Below are positions 43,625-57,244 of a DNA stretch of 64,000 bases, piece by piece. The stretch covers positions 1,178,001 through 1,242,000 of the forward strand of contig JAKVNR010000001.1 of assembly GCA_022483245.1 (NCBI GenBank), written 5' to 3'. The stretch is from Lactobacillus sp. (GTDB lineage: Bacteria > Bacillota > Bacilli > Lactobacillales > Lactobacillaceae). The notes below the pieces were generated by a model. The model worked only from the letters and a program-made list of their open reading frames with translations. It ran no database searches and was not told the origin of the DNA. The position numbers and the translations under genes were made by a program. The stretch's first letter is position 1, and every line of letters starts with the position of its first letter.

Positions 43625-43658
43625 AAAAAAGACGCCCGCTTCTGCGAACGTCTTTTTA
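43625..43658. terminator. Displaced tRNA-Thr terminator
   Basis: AAAAAGACG-CCGC and GCGAACGTCTTTTT form the stem. On the minus strand it directly follows the left att repeat, so before integration it would have been the terminator of tRNA-Thr. Confidence 0.77.
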
Positions 43659-43674
43659 AATTATGCTGACTAAA
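43658..43674. repeat. Left attachment site of the element
   Basis: 17-bp direct repeat matching the right end at 57138-57154. It contains GCTGACTAAA, the complement of the tRNA-Thr 3' end. Confidence 0.87.
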
Positions 43675-43765
43675 AGAGAAGTAGATGCTCTCTCTAGCCG
43701 CTATATTAAGCTTTTCAAGCAAACAAAAATCATTCTGTGTGTTCGATCTGTGTTAGCTTTTCTGA

Positions 43766-45016
43766 CTACATGCTTTTTAAATTTAAACCCATGCTAGAAT
43801 CTTGATTCATCAAATTCATCATAGTTTCGCTTTTATCATTTTCTGGATGAACGTAAGTCTTCATAAACATGTTCAAACTATGCCCCATTCTAGCAGCAGC
43901 CCACGGATATGACATCCCTGGAGTATTTCCCAACTTGCTAGCTACGGTATGCCGACATGTGTACATGCTAATCTGCTCACCTTCATCACCAATACCTAAC
44001 TCACGGCATAGATTTTGCAACAGATCATTCATACTACGCTGCCCAAGTGGTATGCCTGCTTTCATCAAACGAGTATTGCGACAATTTAAAACAATGAAAT
44101 CATTCTTATTAACGATCCGCTTTTGTTCTAAAAAATGTCGTTGTTTAATACTATAAATCCTAAGCACTCCAAGAACTTCTGAAGACAAATTAAGTGTTAA
44201 ACGGGAAACGCCACGTGCCCGAGCTTTAAGATGACCATTTAATCTATTAAGCTTTTCTGACCATGAGTCATTTATTTTAAACACTTCAAAGCTACCATCA
44301 TGAACCAATTGGTTCCATTTAACTGCCTGTATTTCCTGTGGTCGCATACCTGTATCTAAAGCAATCAGGATAGCAATTCTACTACCCCAAAAACTTACTG
44401 GTAGACCATAAAGATCATTAACGATCCTTTCTTTTAATGATACGACTTCATCGTTGGAAAAAATATACTTTTCGGAAGAAATGGAAAATTCATCGACTCT
44501 AAAAAATTTCTTCAAAGCATTTTTAGGAACAGGGTTGCGTTGCACGATGCCTTCTTCCCGCAACATTTCAAAATAACCTCGAAGATGTTGTAAACGTTTA
44601 TCAACAGTAGCATGTCTAGAAACGCCAGCTCTTTTATGGGTAGAGATATAGTTTCTGGCAAAAGCGCGAATTTTATTTTCGTCAACATCTCTAATTTTGA
44701 TTTTATTAAAATATTCAGCAATTAACCGATAAGTATATTGCCAGTCATAATAGGTGACATCATTCCATCTTCCCGCTGAATATTCACCATCACAATAGTC
44801 TTTCAGAGCTTGTGCAAAATCTAATGATGCTTTTGGAGTAAATTTACCTTCGTAATATTCATTCCACATTTGGCGTTCCACTTTTTGAGCTTCCAGTCTA
44901 GTAGGAACCACTCTACTAGGAACACTTATTGCCTTACCAGTTTTCTCATCTATTGGTTGAATTCGAACCCGATAATTTCCTTCTTTTCTACCTGATCTAA
45001 TTCTAGAGATTGCCAT
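43766..45016 (-). CDS. int: Tyrosine recombinase integrase
   Basis: 416 residues from MAISRIRSGRKEG, with AAGGAGAG upstream at 45016. An N-terminal AP2-like and SAM-like binding part (about 1-170) leads to the catalytic domain: Arg in DTGMRPQEIQ, the CRHT box with Arg in YTCRHTVAS, the His in MGHSLNMFM and the nucleophile Tyr in KTYVHPE. It catalyses integration and excision at the tRNA-Thr att site 90 bases away. A longer frame upstream overlaps the xis-like gene and is rejected. Confidence 0.93.
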   Translation of the reverse strand: MAISRIRSGRKEGNYRVRIQPIDEKTGKAISVPSRVVPTRLEAQKVERQMWNEYYEGKFTPKASLDFAQALKDYCDGEYSAGRWNDVTYYDWQYTYRLIAEYFNKIKIRDVDENKIRAFARNYISTHKRAGVSRHATVDKRLQHLRGYFEMLREEGIVQRNPVPKNALKKFFRVDEFSISSEKYIFSNDEVVSLKERIVNDLYGLPVSFWGSRIAILIALDTGMRPQEIQAVKWNQLVHDGSFEVFKINDSWSEKLNRLNGHLKARARGVSRLTLNLSSEVLGVLRIYSIKQRHFLEQKRIVNKNDFIVLNCRNTRLMKAGIPLGQRSMNDLLQNLCRELGIGDEGEQISMYTCRHTVASKLGNTPGMSYPWAAARMGHSLNMFMKTYVHPENDKSETMMNLMNQDSSMGLNLKSM

Positions 45017-45078
45017 TTTTCTCTCCTTGTTAAAAAGAGAGTGCCACACTGGCACTCTCCATTTTACCTCAAATCCTC

Positions 45079-45300
45079 CTATTCCCGATAATCCGCAACC
45101 ATCTCTAGCCACTGTTTAATTTCCGAAGCATAAAAGTATTTTCTTCCGCCAGGATACAAGGCATGGACTGGCATCTTGTCTAATTTAAACTTCTTAGCCT
45201 TCTTCGATGAATATTTCAAACAACGCCACAAAGTTGTAGTTCCAATACCTAGTGATGATGCTAATTGTTTCTTATTCAATCCTCTTTCTTGGGTTTCCAC
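45079..45300 (-). CDS. Small HTH protein, excisionase-like
   Basis: 73 residues with a MerR-type helix-turn-helix (NKKQLASSLGIGTTTLWRCL) and the C-terminal RKYFYASEIKQWLE, common in excisionases next to tyrosine integrases. Directly precedes int in the transcription direction and overlaps the upstream gene by 25 bases. Function in excision is inferred from position. Confidence 0.75.
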   Translation of the reverse strand: METQERGLNKKQLASSLGIGTTTLWRCLKYSSKKAKKFKLDKMPVHALYPGGRKYFYASEIKQWLEMVADYRE

Positions 45301-45752
45301 CCCGTCACCTTCTTTTTAAATCCATCGCGTTTAACCAAGTCCTTACTTAGTAAATTTAAAATGCTAGTTAACTGTTCCAATTTCATGTTTTTAAACATAG
45401 TATTTCGTTGATTAATAGACGTTTGCAATGCTTTAGATGGATGATAATGTCCTGGCTTAGAATTATCGGTCACAAACCAAGATATAAATTCAAAGAATAT
45501 TTCTAATCCCTGATCACCCCAGATATATTTGACCAAATACAATATTCCAGCCGCACCATTCAAAATAAACCACGCAAGTTTGTTCACAATCCAACTATCA
45601 ATCAGTGCAGTATCATCATTTCGAACTATATGTTTCACGTGGAACAGAGTCAGCCATTCATTTGCTAAATTAAAGCCCTCATACTGGCAAAGCATCATTC
45701 TTAACGGCTTCCACTCTGTACTCCAAACATGATCATTTTTTCTTTTCGTCAT
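45276..45752 (-). CDS. Element-encoded hypothetical protein
   Basis: 158 residues, not recognised. It contains an aromatic/hydrophobic middle section (WFILNGAAGILYLVKYIWGD) and a basic C-terminus (KKKVTGWKPKKED). Its start overlaps the Rep-like gene's end by 20 bases, indicating translational coupling in the element's core operon. An exact parS sequence is embedded in its codons (residues LFHVKH). Confidence 0.68.
   Translation of the reverse strand: MTKRKNDHVWSTEWKPLRMMLCQYEGFNLANEWLTLFHVKHIVRNDDTALIDSWIVNKLAWFILNGAAGILYLVKYIWGDQGLEIFFEFISWFVTDNSKPGHYHPSKALQTSINQRNTMFKNMKLEQLTSILNLLSKDLVKRDGFKKKVTGWKPKKED
45631..45646. promoter_or_regulatory. Exact parS 16-mer inside the element
   Basis: TGTTTCACGTGGAACA is the reverse complement of TGTTCCACGTGAAACA, one of the canonical ParB/Spo0J binding sites. 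It lies within an element-encoded hypothetical gene. A chance exact match in a 64-kb window is improbable (15 fixed bases). Confidence 0.8.
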
Positions 45753-46536
45753 CGTTAGTTACCAAAATCCAGTGATTAGTTATGCAGCTGACTAAGTATG
45801 GGTAGAATCTTGGTGCAGCTACTAAATACGTGATTTCCTCACCTATTTTTTGTGCTGTTCGGTGTTTAAATTCCGCCTCAATTCTTATCCAATCGATTAC
45901 ACGCTGAGCTTGAAAGTAATAACTGTTATGTTTGTTCAATGCTTCTTTTCTTTTATTGTATAGACGTAAAAAACTATCTGACCTGCGACTACCAACGTAA
46001 ATAGTGTCAACTTTACCTGAATCACCGAAAGTAGTAATTCGGTCTAACTCAATTTTTCTTTTTGTCTTGCCATTTACAAACTCATATATACCCTGATTTA
46101 GTTTGCCGTCAATTGCATGAATAGAATAGCCATAATTGATTAAATCAGCCGCAATATCAATCCTGGAAATATGCCCGCGAAAATGTAAATAGACTTCTTG
46201 AATTATCTTTTGCCAATCAATATGTATTCCGCAGTTTCGAGCAAGCTCTTCGTATAATTTTTTACCACTTCCGTAAAAGATTACCATGACGCCCATTTGC
46301 GGCTGTTCAGCAGACCACATAATCAATACATTTTCAGTTTCGGTGCCGTACTTCAATGATTTAGTATAGCCATTTAGACCATATTCAAGTTCTTGACCTG
46401 CACCAAGAATCTTCTCAAAGGAAAAGAATTTAATAACTTTTAAAGCAACTTTTTTGCCTGTTTCTATACCATTCCCATGATTAACCGGGAAATTGAAACT
46501 AATCTGGTCGATACTAATATTGTTTATTTTTTTCAT
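45733..46536 (-). CDS. Replication initiator / MobT-like relaxase (Rep_trans family)
   Basis: 267 residues from the ATG at 46536 (MKKINNISIDQISFNFP). Typical blocks: HISRIDIAADL, DTIYVGSRRSDSFLRLYNKRKEA and IRIEAEFK. These match the Rep_trans group that includes pT181 Rep and the relaxases of Tn916-like and small mobilizable elements. It would nick at the nearby hairpin region to start rolling-circle replication or transfer. Overlaps the next gene; the preceding gene is the FtsK-like coupling protein. A start upstream at an earlier ATG lacks a ribosome-binding site. Confidence 0.85.
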   Translation of the reverse strand: MKKINNISIDQISFNFPVNHGNGIETGKKVALKVIKFFSFEKILGAGQELEYGLNGYTKSLKYGTETENVLIMWSAEQPQMGVMVIFYGSGKKLYEELARNCGIHIDWQKIIQEVYLHFRGHISRIDIAADLINYGYSIHAIDGKLNQGIYEFVNGKTKRKIELDRITTFGDSGKVDTIYVGSRRSDSFLRLYNKRKEALNKHNSYYFQAQRVIDWIRIEAEFKHRTAQKIGEEITYLVAAPRFYPYLVSCITNHWILVTNDDEKKK

Positions 46537-46548
46537 GCTACCCCGCTC

Positions 46549-46620
46549 AACAGGCATATTATTATGCGCCTGTTTAGGCCGCACGTTCCACTTGACCAGA
46601 CATCCGTCTGGTCAGCGGCC
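46549..46620. promoter_or_regulatory. Candidate oriT / double-strand origin hairpins
   Basis: Hairpin A pairs AACAGGC (46549-46555) with GCCTGTT (46568-46574). Hairpin B pairs TGACCAGAC with GTCTGGTCA around ATCC (46593-46614), and is extended by an outer GGCCGC/GCGGCC pair. The region lies in the only long gap between the coupling-protein and Rep-like genes, the usual place for the nick site in this element class. Confidence 0.62.
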
Positions 46621-46627
46621 ATACCAT

Positions 46628-47425
46628 CTAAAATGGCCAATAATCTTCATGTGCAAACTTTCTAGAATGATTCCGTTCATCTAATAGGCGAGCTACCATG
46701 GGGACATCTACTTCACTCAAATTTGGCGCAACAAATTGTTGTGGAAGATTATTACTAAAACTATCACTGTAAATCAGACCATGCCCAGGTATATTAGGAA
46801 CTACTGGAATTTGATCTAAATCACACTGTGGAAATGCAAGCCTTAAACTGACAGAATCAAGGTTCTCCATCGCAATCCTGGTTGCAAATTCTGCACTAAC
46901 GTTTACATCTAACACGTTCGAATTTAAACGCTGTGAACACAACACAGTAAAAATTCCTCCCATTTGTCGGGATTTGAATACCAGCTGTTTCATATAGTTA
47001 TCAATTTCATTTACCGTGGATTTGTCGGCTTCAGCAATAGTGGCCGAATATTCGTCCAGAATTAAAACAACCGGACGTAATCGAAAATCAACCCAATCCT
47101 TTCCCCAGGCATTATGCTTCTCATAGCGTTGATTCATCAGGCTATTTAATTTCCTTAGTAAACCTGCTACTTGTGCAGGGGTAGCAGCTGATCTTGGCAC
47201 ACTTTTTTCATCCAGCTCCGATCGACTTAGCATCTTACCAAGTTGAAAAAAATCACTTCTTTTCGTGTCGGCAAAAACTGGGAATGCTCCCAGCTTCATA
47301 GCAATCAACATAATATATGACGCTAGCATTGATTTCCCACTTCCAGGACGACCAACTACTTCGCATCCAGATTGTCCTCGGAGATTAATAGTAATGTCAT
47401 CAGCAATTGGAAATGAAGTCATCAT
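46628..47425 (-). CDS. FtsK/SpoIIIE-type coupling ATPase, C-terminal part
   Basis: 265 residues holding the ATPase core. Walker A is GRPGSGKSMLASY (about residue 25), Walker B VVLILDEYSA and the later QMGGIFTVLCSQR belongs to the FtsK arginine-finger/sensor region. This corresponds to the motor domain of TcpA-like coupling proteins of Gram-positive ICEs. It lacks the membrane anchor, which is supplied by the preceding overlapping gene. The two may be one gene split by a frameshift. Confidence 0.83.
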   Translation of the reverse strand: MMTSFPIADDITINLRGQSGCEVVGRPGSGKSMLASYIMLIAMKLGAFPVFADTKRSDFFQLGKMLSRSELDEKSVPRSAATPAQVAGLLRKLNSLMNQRYEKHNAWGKDWVDFRLRPVVLILDEYSATIAEADKSTVNEIDNYMKQLVFKSRQMGGIFTVLCSQRLNSNVLDVNVSAEFATRIAMENLDSVSLRLAFPQCDLDQIPVVPNIPGHGLIYSDSFSNNLPQQFVAPNLSEVDVPMVARLLDERNHSRKFAHEDYWPF

Positions 47426-47936
47426 TGTTTAATTTTTTCCCGCCTACACTTAGCTTTTTTAAAGTGAATACCAATGGGTATTTACTTCGTACTCCTACAC
47501 TCCACTCTGGCAACTCTCTTTGCAAAGTTGATAAGAGATCTGCATCAGCATTTGGACATCCATCTGCGTGAAATTCCAACTCAAAACCACCGCTAAAGCC
47601 TCGGTATATATCGAAAGATGGAGCAAATTCACGCCGGTAATAACCAAATATCGTTCGATATGACGGTCTGCTAAGTGTGATCATTTGAAGAGACTGTGCG
47701 GAATATGATAATGCTTGAATTAACCATCCCCATTTAAGTTTCCTAATCAACTCGTAGCCTGCAAGCACAATACTTGGCAGTAACGATAACGTTACCCAAT
47801 CGACCACAGATCCGGAAGCAATCATGCTAAGTAGAACAAACAATATAACCCACCAGAATTGAATCAATCCAAACAATACTGGACTAATGCCCCATGGTTT
47901 GCGTAAATCCAATGTGAAGAGATACTGCCTACCCAT
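47400..47936 (-). CDS. FtsK/TcpA-like coupling protein, N-terminal membrane part
   Basis: 178 residues. Two membrane helices (FGLIQFWWVILFVLLSMIA and LSLLPSIVLAGYELI) are followed by a soluble stretch. Its end, KKLNNDDFIS, reads straight into the other frame (IADDITINLRGQ) that begins the ATPase gene. In Tn916-like proteins the two parts are one chain of about 450 residues; together here they give about 437. A one-base insertion near 47405-47415 would explain the split. Confidence 0.7.
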   Translation of the reverse strand: MGRQYLFTLDLRKPWGISPVLFGLIQFWWVILFVLLSMIASGSVVDWVTLSLLPSIVLAGYELIRKLKWGWLIQALSYSAQSLQMITLSRPSYRTIFGYYRREFAPSFDIYRGFSGGFELEFHADGCPNADADLLSTLQRELPEWSVGVRSKYPLVFTLKKLSVGGKKLNNDDFISNC

Positions 47937-48429
47937 TGATTATTCCCGCCGCATTATCAACACGTTGCACACCTGTGGCTAGTAAACTTTCCCCACCGTT
48001 AAAATGATAATAAGAGAGATTATTGAACGATAGGATGATAGGCTTATGTTCGCCAAACATAATTTCATCTAATTCCTTGTCTGAAATAATAGGTTTGGAA
48101 TCTTTAATTTTGATATGTAGTTCAGTCCCCCGATCTATCCAAACACTCTTGCTAACAATGCGAACGCTATAGATTGTGGCATGGGTAATTTGATCAGGAT
48201 TAGAATAATTCGGTTTTTCCTCGTATCTAGCGTCCACTAACGCAAAATAATTACCAATAGCTTTGGGTAACTGCCTATCTAGCATTGCTTGAATAGGAGC
48301 TGTTTTGCTTAATCGCACCTCGGCAAATGTGGATCCTGAACCGGAAACAGAGTTTGAACTATTAAATTGTTCAAATTCTTTAAATTTTTGAACTGCGCTT
48401 TTGGCATTTTTCATTTTTTCATCTGGCAT
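47929..48429 (-). CDS. Element core hypothetical (ICE Orf23-like position)
   Basis: 166 residues from MPDEKMKNAKSAVQKFKEF, with AAAGGA 8 bases upstream. No transmembrane segment. It is the first gene of the core operon and overlaps the next by 8 bases. Family not recognised; position matches small conserved proteins upstream of the coupling protein in Tn916-like elements. Confidence 0.65.
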   Translation of the reverse strand: MPDEKMKNAKSAVQKFKEFEQFNSSNSVSGSGSTFAEVRLSKTAPIQAMLDRQLPKAIGNYFALVDARYEEKPNYSNPDQITHATIYSVRIVSKSVWIDRGTELHIKIKDSKPIISDKELDEIMFGEHKPIILSFNNLSYYHFNGGESLLATGVQRVDNAAGIING

Positions 48430-48607
48430 CGATGTTTTCCTTTCTTTTTTCAAATGGTAATTAATTCAAATCGGTTCGAACTGATTTACATTTACTTTAT
48501 TCTGTTTAAATAGTTTTAAAAATCACCAAAAAAAGGAACCAATTTGGTCCTTTTTTTCGCAACTATTCTTAAATTTTTTCTATTTTTAGCATTCCCCTTA
48601 CTTTATT

Positions 48608-49312
48608 TTGTCTCCTATATTCTTGGAATACCGGCAATTAAAAAAGAAGGGAGAAAGACGGGCCCGTTTTGCAAAATTAATGCAAAACAAAGCAAAAAAT
48701 GGTTTAGCCATGTTAATAAAAAATAGTTCGTTTTCGTATGCTCAAGTAGGTAAAAGCATAGCAACGGAAGCTAACTGGCTTAATAATGACTATTATTACT
48801 GCAAAGATCGCATTAGTAAATTAGTACATGGCACTAATCCAACATGCGAAGAGAAAAAAGCACTTGCAAAATTGTTTTTTCACGATGCTGACAGATGGAG
48901 AGATCTTTACTTCTACAATGATGCAAGCACATACTTATTTATGTGCAGTGTCTTCTTTGATGAAATTTCTAAGCAAACATATAATTATTCGCAATTAAAG
49001 AAGCTAGCAGATAACTATTCAAAAATTTCTGCAAGACAAAATATTTCTAACCCAAAAATGCCAGTGAAAAAATTGGTAGAGCGCATGTTTATCATTCTGT
49101 ATTTTAGAGCGGATGATGAAGTTCGGATAGGAATTCGAAAAAAGCGCAGAAACATCCCAAATTACGCTCGAGAATGGTTCAACGAAATCAAGCCCAATTC
49201 GCCTCTTGTAAAAGAGTTGACACCAAAACTAAGAGAGGCGCTTTCTTTAAATCATGCGAACAGAAAAAAGTTAAAACAGATTATGTTCTGCCAACTCATA
49301 TCCGCACTGTGA
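48608..49312 (+). CDS. Putative HTH regulator of the element (start uncertain)
   Basis: Up to 234 residues from a TTG at 48608; in-frame ATGs at 48680 and 48710 are alternative starts, and no strong ribosome-binding site decides among them. A region near the N-terminus (SYAQVGKSIATEANWLNND...) resembles an XRE-type helix-turn-helix. The rest is unrecognised and rich in Lys and Arg. It is divergent from the core operon, so could control it. Confidence 0.6.
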   Translation: MSPIFLEYRQLKKKGERRARFAKLMQNKAKNGLAMLIKNSSFSYAQVGKSIATEANWLNNDYYYCKDRISKLVHGTNPTCEEKKALAKLFFHDADRWRDLYFYNDASTYLFMCSVFFDEISKQTYNYSQLKKLADNYSKISARQNISNPKMPVKKLVERMFIILYFRADDEVRIGIRKKRRNIPNYAREWFNEIKPNSPLVKELTPKLREALSLNHANRKKLKQIMFCQLISAL

Positions 49313-49431
49313 CACAAAATCAAAAACGCCGATTACAGATGTAAGTCTGCACCGGCCTCTTTTTGACATGCTTTAGAATTTATCACTGTCACGACATTAT
49401 TACTAACTAGTCTAAAAAACTAATCAAAGCA

Positions 49432-49475
49432 AAACCTGAAGTAAATTCTCCTATGAATCTACTTCAGGTTTTTTC
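49432..49475. terminator. Terminator between the HTH gene and the restriction-modification operon
   Basis: AAACCTGAAGTA pairs with TACTTCAGGTTT, with a loop of about 16 bases and a T run on the plus strand. It lies between two convergent genes. A second weaker stem (GCCG...CGGC) lies at about 49334-49368. Confidence 0.8.
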
Positions 49476-49481
49476 TTAAAA

Positions 49482-50159
49482 TTATTCAACTAACTGTTTA
49501 TATACGTCTTCCCATTTCACTATGGTGTAATGTCTATCCGGCTCTTTAGCAGGCTGCTCATCCGGATCAGCAAATAGATCTATTTCTTCATATTGCTTGT
49601 TAACTGTACCAGTTGAGTCTCCACCTTCAATAATAGATTCAAAAGTATACTCTGTACGCTGTACCTTACTTTTACCAATAGGTTTCCATTCGCTAAAAAC
49701 AATTGGTGCCCCAGTACTAGTTTTATGTGTTAAAGTATCGCCTTGCGCCATATTAGCAGAGATGATTACTTGCGCACTACACAATATTTTTCGGCTTTGT
49801 TCTTTAGGCTTAAATGTCTGGAAATATATCTGTTGAAAAGTACTATTCATATTCATAACTAACATTTCAACATTATCTTCCATTATTTCTATGCCATATA
49901 AGGTAGATAAGGCTTGCAAAAATTTATTTTGTAGGTCTTTTTTGCCATTGGCTTGTGACTTTGCATAAATCAATTTGCGCTTAAGTAGCTCAACCAGAAA
50001 TGCACCTTCGCCTGCTGATGGTTCAAGAAAAGTAGCAGTCAATGAATTTACTTTTGCTGCAATCTCTGGCTGATCTAACATGAAGTCTACTGTCTTTTGA
50101 GGAGTAAAAACTTCGCCTATATTTTTTACACGATCAGCAGATTTAATTATTTTTTCCAA
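49482..50159 (-). CDS. Small N6-adenine methyltransferase subunit with SAM-binding motif only
   Basis: 225 residues from a TTG at 50159, four bases after the DUF2971 stop. Opens with VKNIGEVFTPQKTVDFMLDQ, followed by methyltransferase motif I FLEPSAGEGAF (about residues 45-55). Unlike normal adenine methyltransferases it has no NPPY motif. The last third (DLFADPDEQPAKEPDRHY) is unlike a target-recognition domain. The adjacent large protein has NPPY but lacks motif I, suggesting the two form one enzyme. Basis: motifs seen; joint function inferred. Confidence 0.78.
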   Translation of the reverse strand: MEKIIKSADRVKNIGEVFTPQKTVDFMLDQPEIAAKVNSLTATFLEPSAGEGAFLVELLKRKLIYAKSQANGKKDLQNKFLQALSTLYGIEIMEDNVEMLVMNMNSTFQQIYFQTFKPKEQSRKILCSAQVIISANMAQGDTLTHKTSTGAPIVFSEWKPIGKSKVQRTEYTFESIIEGGDSTGTVNKQYEEIDLFADPDEQPAKEPDRHYTIVKWEDVYKQLVE

Positions 50160-50162
50160 CAG

Positions 50163-50966
50163 TTATTCCCATACAAGTTTGCTATTTATTACTCTAGAAT
50201 TTGGATAATCATTCTTTACTATATTTCTAATTTCATTTTCCTTATTCGAATCCACTTTACTACCAATTATTATTTCTAACCCATCTAAGTTTATCGGTAT
50301 ATCTAAGTAATCTACAGGGCAAGGAGAAGAAATTTTACGCAGTATTGCCTTTAATATCATTGCCTGAAAATCTAATTCATTCATCGGATGATGTAAATCC
50401 AGAAGTGTAGGTCTTAACCGATATCTATATTCACTTTGGTAGGACCATTTATTATTCTTATACTTTCCTAAATTACCATTAAAATACCGTAATTCTTTCT
50501 CATCCTGTGAGGTCACTACAGGATATAGCAAGTTGTCATCATCTGAATATTTTATCTTCAATTCTTCAACGCACGTTGGTTCAAATAAAAAATTATTTTC
50601 ATTTATATATTTTTCTATTCCACCTGTATAGCAAAGTTCATCGATGTTATCTATAGAACTGAAAAAACTGTCATTTCCAATGAACATATTCCCGAAATTT
50701 GTATAAAACGGATAATTGGGTAAAGATAGGCAAACTCCGGCTCCTTCCACTCCATATTTATAAAACATGTTTCTGTTATCTCGAAGGTCAGTCCAACTAG
50801 AAGTAAAGACCCATCTTCCAGCATTATATGAATCTCTAGATTTTGCTTCCTCAGGATCATCCATAGCGGTTAAATTATTGAATCGTAACGTTTGATTTTC
50901 CAATATTTTAAATAAGGTTTCAACACTAGTGTAATGATACAACCTTATCATCTTTGAATAATACAT
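50163..50966 (-). CDS. DUF2971 domain protein
   Basis: 267 residues from the ATG at 50966, with GAGG 6 bases upstream. The N-terminal LYHYTSVETLFKILENQTLRF and the following MDDPEEAK block are the DUF2971 signature; YRYRLRP occurs in the middle. The family is common in bacterial defence neighbourhoods but its activity is not established. It sits between the two halves of the methylation/restriction system and is probably co-transcribed. Confidence 0.73.
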   Translation of the reverse strand: MYYSKMIRLYHYTSVETLFKILENQTLRFNNLTAMDDPEEAKSRDSYNAGRWVFTSSWTDLRDNRNMFYKYGVEGAGVCLSLPNYPFYTNFGNMFIGNDSFFSSIDNIDELCYTGGIEKYINENNFLFEPTCVEELKIKYSDDDNLLYPVVTSQDEKELRYFNGNLGKYKNNKWSYQSEYRYRLRPTLLDLHHPMNELDFQAMILKAILRKISSPCPVDYLDIPINLDGLEIIIGSKVDSNKENEIRNIVKNDYPNSRVINSKLVWE

Positions 50967-51012
50967 AATAAACCTCAAAAATCCCCAAATACTGTCTAAC
51001 TACTCAATTTTG

Positions 51013-51344
51013 CTATTGCATAGTCTGAACTTTTGATTCAATAAAGTTAATCTCATCTGCTGAAAGATTGTATTTCTTATATAATTGCTGATCGATGTCA
51101 GAAATGCTCTTTGACCAGTCAATGTCAGAATCCGAAGTAAAGGCTTGCATTGGAATAAGTTTCCAAGTCATTACAGAATTGTGTTGCGTAATTTTTAAAA
51201 TTCCTAGTAATACACGAACAAATTTAGTTTTAATATATTTCTCTGCAGCTAAGGCCTCTGATTTTGTATCAAAAGCACCGATACTCATAAAAGTTTCTGT
51301 TGAAGCAACTGCTGGTCCACAAACTATAGGTTTACCAATTTCTC
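51013..51344 (-). pseudogene. C-terminal end of the restriction-modification protein, cut off by IS256
   Basis: The reading frame downstream of the insertion encodes EIGKPIVCGPAV, ETFMSIGAFDTKSEALAAEK and TSDSDIDWSKSISDIDQQLYKK, ending at 51013. It continues in frame from the large protein when the IS element and one target copy are removed (GEIG | KPIV). This tail is typical of the end of helicase-fused Eco57I-like methylases. Its fragment has an internal ATG but no likely independent function. Confidence 0.83.
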
Positions 51345-52709
51345 GACACTGTCAATTCTTTTGTGTAAATAAATCTTTCCGATAGGTTGATTCTTTAATT
51401 ATGTTTTAATCGAAGTATGATTCCAACGTGTCTGTCACCTGACCAAAGCCTTTATGAGTCCGATTGGCATTCCGGTCGTTGTAGCCGATAGCCTGTACAC
51501 CTAAGAAGTTGTCTAGGGACTCTTCAGTTGGAAATTCTGACTTTGGCTTTGTCTTGCGTTTGATCATGTTGTTTATCGACTCGATCATGTTCGTTGAGTA
51601 GATCGAGGGCCGAATCTGCTTAGGGTACTGGTAAAAGACCAGCAGGTCTTCCTCAATCTTCTGCAGATTCTTGATCATGCTTGAGTATTTTGAGTCGTAT
51701 TTGTCATAGAAAGCGTGGAGAACCGTTTCTGCCTCTTTTAAGCTAGATTGCTTATGAACTTGCTTGAAGTCGTCCAGAGCCTCTTTATGATCGCTTACAC
51801 GGACTTTTCCCTTGATATTTCGCATGACATGAACTAGGCAACGTTGGAATTTAGATTTTGGGTAATACTGCTTTAGCATGTCTTTAATGCCTACAAACCC
51901 ATCTGATAGGAATAGCTCAACCTGCTCAAGGCCGCGTTCCTTGAAGTTGGAAATCATTTCACCCCAAATTTCGATATTCTCCACCGGGGCAATACGATAA
52001 TCAATGATCTCCTTATGGCCATTAGGCTTAATCCCAACAGCCACATAGACTGCCTCACGCTGGTACGTATCTCTACGCAGAGGAATGTAAGTGGCGTCGA
52101 GATACACGCAGAAGAACTTGTCGCTCAGCTGACGTTGGTGATATCTTTCGACCTGGCTGGCAACCTGCTTAGAGATGTTGGAGACAGTGCCAGCTGAGTA
52201 ATAGCTGCCATACATTTTCTCAATCAAATCAGAGATCTCCCGGGTCGTTACGCCATGCGAATAGAGCTGAATCACGGTTGCTTCTAGCGTATCAGTGTGT
52301 TGGCCGTATGCTGGGAGAGTATGTTGGTGAAACTCACCTTTTCTGTCCCGAGGAACTTGAACTCTGATCGGTCCGAATTGAGTTTTAACTTGTCTAAAAT
52401 AGCTACCGTTTCTAGAGTTTCCAGAGTTCCAACCCTCTCGAGCATAGGGATCATAACCAAGAAAGGCAGTCAATTCGCTTTCTAGGAGTTGATCGAGTCC
52501 TTCTTCAAGCTGAGTACGCATGAATTCATCGAATTTCTCTTTGTTCAATAGCGCATTGAGGCATTCTTTGTTAAAATCAGTCATAGGGGATTCCCTTTCG
52601 TATTGATAGTATTCAAATCAATTATACGGAAAGGGAGTCCCTTTTTTATACCCAATTGGAATTTAGTTTAAGGAACTGTTCATCCTTACACATAAAATTA
52701 TACAGTTCC
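51345..52709 (-). mobile_element. IS256-family insertion sequence, 1365 bp, with 8-bp target duplication
   Basis: The element is bounded by AATTTCTC at 51337-51344 and 52710-52717. Its ends are imperfect inverted repeats (GACACTGTC-AATT... at the left; ...AATTATACAGTTCC at the right, read in the plus strand). One transposase gene fills most of it. Size and duplication length suit IS256. It interrupts the restriction-modification gene. Confidence 0.88.
51406..52584 (-). CDS. IS256-family transposase
   Basis: 392 residues. The mutator-type DDE residues fit CVYLDATYIPLRR, FLSDGFVGIKDM and IYSTNMIESINNMIKRKTK. The C-terminal signature and overall length are typical of Lactobacillus IS256 members. 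Full length with no stops, so the copy could be active. AAGGGA precedes the ATG at 52584. Confidence 0.95.
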   Translation of the reverse strand: MTDFNKECLNALLNKEKFDEFMRTQLEEGLDQLLESELTAFLGYDPYAREGWNSGNSRNGSYFRQVKTQFGPIRVQVPRDRKGEFHQHTLPAYGQHTDTLEATVIQLYSHGVTTREISDLIEKMYGSYYSAGTVSNISKQVASQVERYHQRQLSDKFFCVYLDATYIPLRRDTYQREAVYVAVGIKPNGHKEIIDYRIAPVENIEIWGEMISNFKERGLEQVELFLSDGFVGIKDMLKQYYPKSKFQRCLVHVMRNIKGKVRVSDHKEALDDFKQVHKQSSLKEAETVLHAFYDKYDSKYSSMIKNLQKIEEDLLVFYQYPKQIRPSIYSTNMIESINNMIKRKTKPKSEFPTEESLDNFLGVQAIGYNDRNANRTHKGFGQVTDTLESYFD

Positions 52710-55700
52710 AATTTCTCCGAAAGAACCACTTCCATTAGCTGCAGGAATTAATACTTTGAATGAATCTAAGTTATCTGGACTGTTCAAATATTTCCTATTA
52801 ACATACATAACTTCTCTTTTAAAGTTTTTACGACCAATAATTTTTACATATTGTTGTCCATCTTTAGGAATTTCCTTATAAAAGATCTTTGGCAATCTAT
52901 CAAAAATATTAGAAGAAACATCATTTGCATGACCTTTACTTAATTTTGAGATTGCTTCAGGGTGCTCAATATGCATTTCTTTGGTGAAATTATATATAGT
53001 TCTAGGGTGAACAATTTTACTAAAACTATCAAAATTACCATTAACAACTTTTCTCATAATGTTTACTAATGGCTTGTATGGAATGTATATACCAGCGGGA
53101 GCATAATCTGTCACAATTGAGCCATAATTTTGATTTAAATTCCAAAGACTGATTATGATACCACCCTTGATATCCGTATTTGGAAATACATCTGCGCTCT
53201 TTTCAATATACTTAACAACTTTAAAATGAGGATCATTTAAAATCTTATTATTCCATTCTTTAGGCGTACTACCTGCGCCAAATAAGAATCTAGCTGGCGT
53301 AATTAAAGTAACTAAATCCGAGAGCTTGTATGATAAATCCATAAATTCATTGTAAATAGGGGCTGTAAAATTACTTTGATCACCATGAGCCTGATCTTGA
53401 TAAGGTGGGTTGCCAATCACAACATCAAATTTCATATTTCCAAACAACCCCTCAATCTTTTTAGCTTCCTTGTTAACGTTATCTTTAGAATCTTCAACTA
53501 TCTTTTCAACGTATTCTGCGTTAATAATCCAATCATCGTGATAGCCAGTTAGAGTTCGTCTAGCTATTTCTTTGGCCATTGGCGTTTTTGCTACTAAGAA
53601 AATGTTTTCTCTTAGAATTCTTTGCCACAACAGTAGCTCATCTTCAAAGCTAAATTTACCCGCAGTTTGATTGTTCATATTCTCAAACTCACGCCAGTAA
53701 ATTGAAGTAGCAGCATATAGAGGATATAGTCCTGTCTTAGAATTAATTTCTAAAACATGTGAATCCCTATTTAAAACTTGATCAGTGTAATCAGTTTTTA
53801 TCCAGCGTCTGATGACATTGCCGTCTTCATAAGAATACTGATAATCTTTATCGTAAAACGATAAGCCACCAATAGTTTTACCTAAGTGCATGTTAACCAC
53901 ACGCCACGGAGTTAGAACAGTTTCCTTATCTGGGTTTCTGAAAGTTCCAAAAATATCAGCAATTTTTCCTACCCGCTCTAAAGGATCTTCTTTATCTAGT
54001 TCTTTAACACGTCGGCGAATAATCTTACCTGCTTCAATAAAGACATCAGCATCATAGTATTTGATAAACTTATTGAACAGTTCTTTAGTAACACCTTTAG
54101 GCATAAATTCTTGCCAAGATACGTCATCAATATTGTTAACGAATTTTCTGATAGAAACATCTTCGTCAAACTTAATATTCATTCCATAGATCATCATCGG
54201 AATTCTAATCGAAACTCCACGAAGAACGGAAATCATTGTACGACGTTGTTTCTTTAGTGCCTTAACTTTATCAATTGCAGCTTGTTCCTCAGCACTTCTC
54301 TCCTTTGGCTTCTTTTTTCTAGCCTTTTCAGCCTTGTCATACTCATCCTCATCAAGGCCTTGATGGTTAACATCAACCGTTAATTTAGCTTTTTCTTTCT
54401 TAGTAGTCCCAACAATACCCTTTAGATCATTAAAGTCTTCTAGATCCGCATCCTTAATCATAAGCAACTCATCGCTGTAAATAGAATCATCATCAAAACC
54501 AGTTCTAACAGCTTTTTCCGCATAAGCACGCTTAATCTTAGATAACAGACTATCAACCTTGAATGGCTTCATCTTCTGATTGCTTTCACCAATAATAGGT
54601 AAAAAGTTCATAAGTTTAGCCATTCTAGCGCGTTGTTCTTTGGTTTGAATCTTACCTACACCAGTAGCCAAGCTCGTTGATTCTGCCATAACAGTTAAAG
54701 CTCGATCAGGGGCAAAGTCAAAAATGTAGCAATTTTCTTTTTTACCATATTTAGGTGATGAATACGGAGTCTGTGCCCTAAAAGCAGCTTGCAAATATTG
54801 CATTGCGCTATTGGTGTTTGACAAAAACAAAACAGCTGACCATTCAGGTACAGTGGCACCAGTAGTCAATTTGCGCACAGTTAAGGTAATTGTCTTCAAG
54901 TCTTTTTCATCTGCTTCAGCAATTGCCTTATTTTCTGCTTCTACATCATTATCGGTTCCAACTTCTTTATCGTTCCTATCATTTCTAACTACGTTAAGAA
55001 TGCGGTATTCCGAGCCAAAAATGGGATGCTTTTCTAATAAATCCTGCAGAGCGTTAGCTTCTTTAATTCCTGGTAAAATCCATAAAGTATGCCGCAACCT
55101 ATTTCTAAATGATCTAGTAGAGAATGGATAATTAGTTGGGCCTGGATTAGTGATATTATCCAAGAAATGTCTTACATCAGTTTCATAGACAAATTTTCCA
55201 TTCTGATCAGTTCTAAAGAACTCTTTGAAATTGAAAGTATATTTTCCTAAGCCATCACCAGTAAATCGTGGATCAGAAAAATGTTTATTCATTTCAAAAG
55301 TAAACATTGATACTTTAGGCAGACCAGCATATGGATTAGCCTGATTGGGATGCTCTTGATACCATGCAGCTTTAGCTTCTTGCTCCATTGTATAGTCCCA
55401 CGTAAATACTTGATCTTCATCGTAATCAGACAAAATATTGAAAGGCGTACCCGATAAATCAAGCTCCTTAGTGTGCTTCTTAATAACCGATTTTAAAATG
55501 TTTTGAGTTAGGTCTGTTTGTGTTCCTTCATGGGCTTCATCAACAATAACTAAGTCCCATTGAACAGCAAATAAGTCACGGTTCTTATCTGAAATCTTGC
55601 CGCCAACTGATTCTGATCCGCCTAAATCTTGAATGCTTGCAAAATAAACATAAGGCTTGCCAGATGCTTCAAGATCTTTAATCTCTCTATGACCCTTCTT

Positions 55701-55796
55701 TTTAGAGCCATAAATATATCCAGCGTCAGGCATCCCTATTTTATTAAAGTCGTCAAACCAGCCGCCATCTACTACAGGCCGGTGTGTCATAATCAA
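52710..55796 (-). pseudogene. Restriction-modification protein, helicase and Eco57I-type methylase part
   Basis: About 1030 residues remain open and now stop inside the IS. The helicase region holds DLVIVDEAHEGTQ (about residue 86), SGTPFN and MQYLQAAFRAQT. Further on lies VVIGNPPYQDQ (about 796-799), the N6-adenine methylase motif IV, and ITPARFLFGAG. No SAM-binding motif I is visible here. The start at 55796 is artificial: the same helicase begins in the previous frame. The C-terminus is severed by IS256. Confidence 0.83.
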
Positions 55797-56845
55797 AACT
55801 TTTTTAAAGTTTTTTCTTTAACTAATTCAAGTGCTGACAAAGTCTTCCCGAAACGCATTTTTGCATTCCAAAGCATCTTATTGCCAGATTTAAAAGCATC
55901 CTTAGTCTTATCAACTGCTTCCCGCTGCTCAGGGCGCAAAACAACCTTTATCTCTGTTTGAGGAATTACTTTATCTAAACTATCCTTACCCTCTTTAACA
56001 GCTTTAATAGCGCTTTTAGCAGTTTCTAGATTTGTTTCAAACCATTCATTTCCAGCTAAGTCTTGACTATGCTTGATTCCTGATCTCTCAAGGACACGAT
56101 AAACATCATGATCACTAAACCACCAACCATCAGACTGTCGATAAGCTAATTCAGCCCACTCTAAATTAGCTGGTACACCTGATGTTTTCATATATTGATC
56201 AATTCTCTTTTCAGCCCATGAACGTAAGTACGGACTATTATCAGAATTATCTTCTGCAAGATCACCAACACCAGTTTTACCAATTTTTTGGCTGTTAGCA
56301 TAAACAGCAAATTTACCAGAAGAATTATCTGCAGTTTGAATATAAATTAAATTCTTTTCTGCATTAGATGGCTGGATTGTCGTCGTATGATACATAAAAT
56401 CAGTTTCAGCAGGTTCTTTGAAACTTGTAATATCAATTTTTTCATCATAAAAAGTACCGACAAACCAAACCATTAATGCGAATAACTGTTTTAAAGCCCT
56501 TAAAGCATCTTTTTGAGAGCTATCTTCAAGCGTATGAGCAGCTACATTACCAGGATTTTTAATATCATAGAAAAGTTGAAGTGCATATTCATCAATACAT
56601 GCCTTTTGCTTCAATCTTCTAAGTACATCATTAAAGGTTGCGCGCTTACCCAGCTTAATAAACTTTTGATCCGCAACATCTCTAGCCATGTTTTCGGCAA
56701 TTGCACGAACTGCAGTAAGTACGCCAGGGTAAATACCCACAGCATAACTTATTTCTGCTTGTGTCGCCCTTGTATAATACTGTCTCGTTAATATATCGTG
56801 ATTGAGAAATTCGAAGTTGCTTTCCATGTCTATGTTGTCCTGCAT
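55793..56845 (-). pseudogene. Restriction-modification protein, N-terminal nuclease/helicase part
   Basis: 350 residues. A DUF4145-like helical start is followed by a segment (GKFAVYANSQKIGKTG ... GNEWFETNLETA) that recalls GIY-YIG/T5orf172 nucleases. The helicase motif I follows: MLWNAKMRFGKTLSALELV near the end. It stops at TGA immediately before IMTHRPV of the next frame. Adding one A to the run of six at about 55801-55806 joins both into a single reading frame. Start codon uncertain (56845 or six codons later). The nuclease assignment is tentative. Confidence 0.75.
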
Positions 56846-57075
56846 TTATATCTTGTTTACTTCAATACTTTAATTATACAAAGCACAAAGAGCAAATTCA
56901 CTCAAACACACAAAAAAACAGGCATAAAGCCTGTTATTACGCCAGTTTGACACTCTCAAGAATTTTCATTTTTAGCTTAAAACACACCTTGTGTGTTCTC
57001 GTGTGTTTGTTTCAACACATTTCAATAAAATTCAAACTTTTTAAATTTATTCCTTGATGGTTCAAAACAAGCAAA

Positions 57076-57119
57076 AAGCCTTTCAAATCAACACTCAGAA
57101 AGTATTGTTTGAAAGGCTT
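57076..57119 (-). terminator. Element-supplied terminator next to tRNA-Thr
   Basis: AAGCCTTTCAAA pairs with TTTGAAAGGCTT on the minus strand and is followed by a T run. It replaces the tRNA terminator displaced by the insertion. Confidence 0.8.
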
Positions 57120-57137
57120 CCATGCGCTCTCGCATAA

Positions 57138-57154
57138 AAATTATGCTGACTAAA
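57138..57154. repeat. Right attachment site of the element (in tRNA-Thr 3' end)
   Basis: AAATTATGCTGACTAAA, identical to the left copy at 43658. It keeps the tRNA 3' sequence intact after integration. Confidence 0.87.
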
Positions 57155-57216
57155 GGGTTCGAACCTTCGACCTCCTCATTACTAGTGAGGTGCTCTGCCA
57201 GCTGAGCTAAGTCAGC
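57144..57216 (-). tRNA. tRNA-Thr (anticodon AGT)
   Basis: 73 bases. Acceptor GCTGACT pairs with AGTCAGC; the anticodon stem CCTCA/TGAGG encloses CTAGTAA, giving AGT. The T arm GAAGG-TTCGAAC-CCTTT closes with one G-T pair. CCA is not encoded. It is the insertion target of the adjacent element and stays intact. Confidence 0.95.
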
Positions 57217-57244
57217 ACATGTATTGTCATCGACAACATCAATT

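Follow-up and report, generated by a model that had tools for sequence, protein, structure and literature searches.

The window analysed here is a stretch of 64,000 nucleotides of Lactobacillus sp. (GenBank assembly GCA_022483245.1, contig JAKVNR010000001.1, positions 1,178,001 to 1,242,000). On its minus strand a fragmented large gene is followed, in reading order, by a DUF2971 gene and a small gene, the large and small products both carrying methyltransferase motifs. Judging from homology, membership of these genes in the DrdVI-type family of split restriction–modification (R-M) systems is near certain. When membership and mechanism are taken together, the locus is probably a broken anti-phage system of this type in which the small protein holds S-adenosylmethionine (SAM) and the NPPY half of the large protein transfers the methyl group.

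The small protein (49482–50159, minus strand) reads as an M1-like, SAM-binding half of a gamma-class N6-adenine methyltransferase. It contains GEVFTP (50100–50117), EPSAGEGAF (49998–50024), YGIEIMEDN (49872–49898) and NMAQGDTL (49731–49754), which we take to be motifs X, I, II and III, respectively. Reading through 49482–50159 revealed no NPPY (motif IV), so that the initial annotation was right in describing a protein with motif I and without NPPY. Being short, with motif I and no NPPY, it has the features of an M1 protein, and it aligns with M1.DrdVI at 35% identity over 207 amino acids (E=2e-32). A search admitting only proteins of 0.55–1.75 times the query length returned 1238 relatives at E≤1e-3, with lengths of 212–255 amino acids among the 120 matches listed. 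Motif conservation was assessed on 111 rows from 109 loci, a set in which the window copy (L001), two short duplicates (L002 and L003), some fragments and some near-identical copies are counted; both glycines of motif I are retained in 108/108 aligned rows and the motif II acid in 107/107 (Glu in 102, Asp in 5).

The large gene extends from 56845 to 51013 (minus strand) and is distributed over three open reading frames (ORFs). According to ORF and family searches, the first (55793–56845) encodes the N-terminal part of the protein, with DUF4145, a GIY-YIG-like region and the start of the helicase. The second (52698–55796) encodes the main part, with a superfamily 2 (SF2) helicase/translocase, a degenerate SAM-binding half (KxG), an Eco57I-type NPPY half and a target-recognition region. 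The third (51013–51288) is the C-terminal end of the target-recognition part, severed by an insertion sequence (IS); it corresponds to positions 1278–1359 of the PADLOC model PDLC03626 and is continuous in the database protein P0121. Both the catalytic NPPY (53400–53411) and the DEAH of the helicase (55530–55541), reported in the initial annotation, are present in ORF 52698–55796. Around NPPY the protein resembles M2.DrdVI (41% over 108 amino acids, E=1e-18), as expected of an M2 chain.

It had also been proposed that the large protein has no motif I. However, a motif X-like segment, ETVLTPWRVV (53895–53924), is followed by a degenerate motif I, SHVLEINSKTGLY (53724–53762, minus strand, in ORF 52698–55796), where Lys replaces the first Gly, and then by NPPY, the succession of motifs that a gamma-class enzyme should show. 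In the large family this loop reads K-x-G (Lys in 85/85 and Gly in 85/85 aligned relatives), the motif II acid position is Ala in 83/85, and NPP is retained in 90/90 aligned rows, near-identical copies included. Profile comparison, the check suggested for a hidden motif I, matched the small family to the N-terminal half of the large chain with 95.3% probability over motifs X and I, and to the NPPY half with only 0.4%; the half that it found is homologous and Lys-variant, not intact. The KxG half of relatives in turn matched the N-terminal half of M2.DrdVI and four relatives with 99.2% probability. Because of this motif order, the K-x-G loop and the profile comparisons, the large chain is read as carrying a half of the SAM-binding type, but a degenerate one. 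For the M2 part of a close relative, structure prediction gives the full fold of a gamma-class methyltransferase, with a predicted local distance difference test (pLDDT) score of 91.5. A large chain devoid of its N-terminal half was rejected on the Lys-variant motif, the profile comparison and this predicted fold.

The helicase of the large protein gives a ResIII match (E=7.1e-7), and the helicase profile also matches the DrdVI plasmid (L111). The GIY-YIG segment, suspected from the outset, yields a weak match below the cut-off in the window (E=0.085) to MUG113, presumably a family of the GIY-YIG kind; the match is clearer in a relative, L012 (E=7.9e-5). The records of some relatives annotate GIY-YIG, and the GIY profile built here gave no match in L111. 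Resemblance to a Type I R protein is confined to about 160 N-terminal residues, and no specificity (S) subunit was seen among the 7 window proteins scanned, no search having been aimed at such subunits. A sequence search of the PDB gave no match for alignments A5 (small–NPPY fusions) and A4, and for alignment A1 a single weak match, RM.BsaXI (E=0.0027).

Linkage, natural fusions and distribution

The small family detected 177 genome loci; linkage was surveyed in the best 80 of them, and an NPPY half lies within the fetched stretch in 74/80. KxG and NPPY share one ORF in 51 of these 74 loci (large gene first in 32, small gene first in 19), while NPPY stands in an ORF without KxG in 21, a count that includes L072 and two loci at contig starts (L020, L033), all three of which may be cut copies of other classes; the small and NPPY parts are fused in 2 of the 80. 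Among the six loci without an NPPY half, four are at contig ends (L058, L059, L067, L069), L039 has a truncated large gene, and L061 shows no NPPY half within the 1.3 kb before its contig end. In L061 (7860–8774), the small gene is followed near the contig end by another putative methyltransferase, named by eye.

On plasmids, 71/72,556 records match the small protein, and the NPPY half and small gene share a cluster in all 15/15 loci fetched (from sets of 71 and 74 matching records). For four plasmid M2 genes no M1 is annotated; just upstream of each lies a gene for 260–306 amino acids, with a clear M1 motif I in two and a looser form in two. The looser ones, from Pediococcus (L120) and E. faecium (L121), score 12–30 bits only and are M1-like by reading (LEITCGE) without a firm match. 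In L120 (2188–3105) and L121 (1943–2788), LEITCGE replaces EPxxGxG beside a large gene with an NPPY half, and the E. faecium gene is annotated ‘restriction endonuclease’.

Viral loci were counted over L122–L150, from the 76 loci of an M2 viral scan, L151 and L152 being weaker rows scanned beyond them; they are partly non-independent, since L132 is the contig of L098 and L145–L147 look near-identical. M1 lies upstream of a DrdVI-like M2 in 27/29 (0.9 kb away in L131); of the other two, L125 starts inside M2 and L135 has only the NPPY half. Viral M2 proteins with an N-terminal half read K-S/T-G in 28/28. The small profile is matched only in part in phages L101–L107, and two phage records hold, by reading, the full three-gene set. 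By eye, viral proteins of L135 (1761–4001 and 8258–11290) look intein-bearing. Plasmids, phage contigs and an integrative element all carry genes of this system, whose hosts include lactic acid bacteria, enterococci and members of other phyla. The view that small and large genes form one conserved system is supported by their linkage.

The same does not apply to the DUF2971 gene (50163–50978, minus strand; PF11185, E=2.9e-4, just above the cut-off), which does lie between the small and large genes as first described. In a BLASTP comparison with the ORFs of 117 loci, its relatives turned up only in the window locus (L001) and at one other site of this genome, represented by both L011 and L002. 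At the corresponding position on other plasmid loci there is a different gene (L004, L005) or none (L006, L007, L010). For these reasons DUF2971 is best read as an accessory gene, its candidacy as a core part of the system being rejected; to the question raised earlier, whether the three genes always travel together, the loci answer in favour of small and large only.

Natural fusions give a second view of the gene borders. Chains that hold the small part and the NPPY half together, with the small protein placed directly ahead of the NPPY half, form a family. With the small part of L079 as query, 84 database hits were obtained; in the 59 aligned over both halves (25 near-duplicate, short or weak hits were omitted), EPSAGEG and NPPYQ are invariant. 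A separate helicase gene after the fusion in L079 retains the KxG half; the ORF after the fusion in L092 (636 amino acids) shows GIY and helicase and no KxG. A viral contig of the DrdVI branch, L151 (5452–7023), encodes a 523-amino-acid M1–NPPY chain without KSG half or helicase match, a single metagenomic case; the phage hit H142, considered as a second such chain, was discarded on reading, its order being the ordinary M1, M2, R. In the class C loci (L012 type) inspected, the NPPY protein starts shortly before motif IV, immediately after the small gene. In loci of this class such as L012, L076, L081, L094 and L095, the two genes are in frame and separated by a single stop codon (TAG). Given the natural fusions and L151, the small protein and NPPY half can, as far as motifs tell, form a full motif set.

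Cofactor use by the two halves

In the mechanism that we favour, an intact large protein would be a single polypeptide uniting a GIY-YIG nuclease, an SF2 translocase and the M2 chain (NPPY catalytic half and target recognition); the small protein would be M1, the SAM-binding half. The NPPY half would methylate adenine using SAM carried by the small protein, and unmethylated sites would trigger translocation and then cutting. The motif II acid usually binds the ribose, and SAM is placed in the small protein because the large chain has an invariant Lys in its glycine loop and Ala at that acid position. Homology, gene linkage, motif conservation and natural fusions form the basis of this proposal, together with the complete M2 fold predicted for a relative. 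What weighs against it is that NPPY is fused to a KxG half in 51 genome loci and in DrdVI itself. The division of SAM site and catalysis over subunits, as first suggested, therefore keeps the support of linkage, fusions and published M1–M2 pairs, but not in the simple form of a large chain without motif I. For the fit between a SAM-bearing M1 and the KxG half in cis, there are three candidates: exchange, a composite site, and a Lys-variant site that works by itself, the small protein then being an accessory.

One tentative version, possible though not favoured, is a methyltransferase of three half-domains. The NPPY half would be parked on a dummy SAM-binding half from which the invariant Lys excludes SAM, and would become active once the SAM-loaded small half replaces or joins the dummy. 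If so, whether the enzyme cuts or methylates could be switched by its state of assembly.

It is rather unlikely, all considered, that the KxG half functions as a non-canonical site for SAM, which would make the large protein a complete methyltransferase and the small one a non-catalytic, SAM-binding regulatory or structural partner. The complete fold predicted for the cis chain of a relative, the invariance of K-x-G and the canonical order of motifs X, I and IV within one chain are consistent with such an enzyme. However, Ala replaces the motif II acid in 83/85 relatives, natural small–NPPY chains exist, one of which (L151) is without any KxG half, and the small gene, as a gene of its own, has retained its SAM motifs and its linkage (74/80 loci).

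The SAM motifs also bear on a further, improbable view, in which the large protein is a stand-alone enzyme of the Type ISP kind (LlaGI/LlaBIII type) that can do without the small gene. A Type ISP enzyme is a single chain that has a canonical SAM motif of its own; in LlaGI and LlaBIII, nuclease, helicase, gamma-class methyltransferase and target-recognition domain are in one chain. Here the SAM motif is degenerate (KxG instead of GxG) and a separate M1 gene is retained, and the published relatives were cloned as M1–M2 pairs.

In public records the two halves go under different names, ‘N-6 DNA methylase’ for one and ‘Eco57I’ for the other. Seeing a single unit with re-cut borders, its parts being separate, helicase-fused or fused to each other, alters the annotation. 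It also raises the enzymological question of how a catalytic half with a degenerate cofactor half in cis uses a second one in trans. One protein of the system retains a disabled-looking copy of its partner's cofactor site.

Damage to the window copy and its carrier element

ORFs 55793–56845 and 52698–55796 join at a frame change beside the run A-AAA-AAG. Downstream, the large gene is interrupted by an IS with an IS256-family transposase (51406–52584, minus strand). The insertion is probably recent, since the flanks have 10 bases in common (compared by eye) and the genome contains this transposase three times, full-length and identical. The database protein P0121 (a cluster of 9 sequences) corresponds to the second ORF with a continuous C-terminus and without IS, and starts inside the same frame; the IS is therefore not in every close relative, whereas the frame change may be.

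Three versions of the system are found in this genome. Whereas the window copy is divided into three ORFs, the intact relative, L011, has its large gene as one continuous ORF (1489 amino acids), followed by DUF2971 and small genes. L012 has the small gene, a separate 345-amino-acid protein whose start lies a little ahead of motif IV, and a GIY-YIG/helicase protein with the degenerate half at its end. This three-gene version (L012:5282–15268) is flanked by an 870-amino-acid helicase-like protein upstream and a 656-amino-acid DUF262-like protein downstream, both named by eye; its surroundings are possibly a defence island.

As it stands, the window copy is unlikely to restrict DNA, and its small protein could still be made. 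Programmed ribosomal frameshifting, instead of damage, as the cause of the frame change is very improbable: A-AAA-AAG is a run of the slippery type, the two ORFs meet there and P0121 also begins within this frame, but intact relatives, L011 of the same genome included, are single continuous ORFs, and the IS disrupts the window copy in any case. One might also see in the small protein a methyltransferase fragment, unrelated or degraded, that lies by chance beside the large gene, as its broken neighbour and the absent NPPY might suggest; this view is hardly tenable and is ruled out by linkage (74/80 genome loci, 27/29 DrdVI-like viral loci) and natural fusions, alongside the 1238 relatives of the small protein.

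The system is cargo of an element bounded by the 17-base direct repeat AAATTATGCTGACTAAA, with copies at 43658–43674 and 57138–57154 (plus strand), the second overlapping the 3′ end of tRNA-Thr (57143–57217, minus strand). A tyrosine recombinase (integrase; 43766–45112, minus strand) was named from sequence. On account of this recombinase and the repeat overlapping tRNA-Thr, 43658–57154 is, by its sequence features, an integrative element of ~13.5 kb in tRNA-Thr. The same interval also holds Rep-like and FtsK-like genes, named by eye. Adjoining the small gene is an ORF of 234 amino acids (48608–49312, plus strand) with no Pfam match and a weak match to PADLOC HEC-02B (E=5.8e-4).

Relation to known systems

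The initial annotation considered the arrangement possibly undescribed. The split arrangement is already in print, and since the pair is homologous to M1/M2.DrdVI the split reading itself is largely right. M1-2.DrdVI of pDrdVI is of Type IIG, with GCAGCC as sequence and 6mA as modification, and its methyltransferase genes were cloned in E. coli (Fomenkov et al. 2019, PMC6430315). M1-M2.MaeIV (GCACY, m6A) is likewise a pair cloned in E. coli; published m6A activity concerns only the cloned M1–M2 pairs of DrdVI and MaeIV, and this kind is named ‘split methylase/RM genes’ (PMC6430315; PMC10113651). DrdVI itself is a fused translocase and restriction endonuclease according to a Bibersteinia paper (PMC4996451).

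Plasmid pDrdVI of Deinococcus wulumuqiensis (L111) holds small, KSG-NPPYQ and helicase genes, matched by the small, NPPY and helicase profiles; their assignment as M1, M2 and DrdVI follows from the plasmid name and the papers. The likeness to the window type consists of a small M1 with a GxG half and no NPPY, an M2 with a KSG half and NPPYQ, and a helicase/translocase protein, all in one cluster. The genes are three and separate in DrdVI, whereas in the window type nuclease-translocase and M2 form one chain of ~1480 amino acids, with an extra N-terminal DUF4145 region and the small gene last.

MaeIV of Methanococcus aeolicus is likened by its published description rather than by gene comparison. 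In Btr188ORF1790/1760 of Bibersteinia trehalosi, M1 and M2 similarity lies within one gene (frameshifted or of multiple ORFs), inactive in the strains studied (PMC4996451). The OspHL35III type, compared by description, is a Type IIG-like set with a translocase and GIY-YIG endonuclease beside a methyltransferase; the latter is MmeI-like and contained in one protein, with translocase and nuclease separate (PMC4752239).

Two PADLOC models, PDLC03626 (REase_MTase_IIG) and PDLC03375 (MTase_II), hit the large protein and its NPPY half; PADLOC classes them as a Type IIG and a Type II enzyme. The models matching the small protein cover it only in part. The open-access literature searched, mostly at the level of listings and without supplements, yielded no account of the degenerate K-x-G half, the fused R–M2 form or the small–NPPY fusions. 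With LlaGI and LlaBIII, the M2 part of a relative matches structurally, as judged from its predicted model; the window type differs from both in retaining a separate SAM-binding partner and a Lys-variant motif I.
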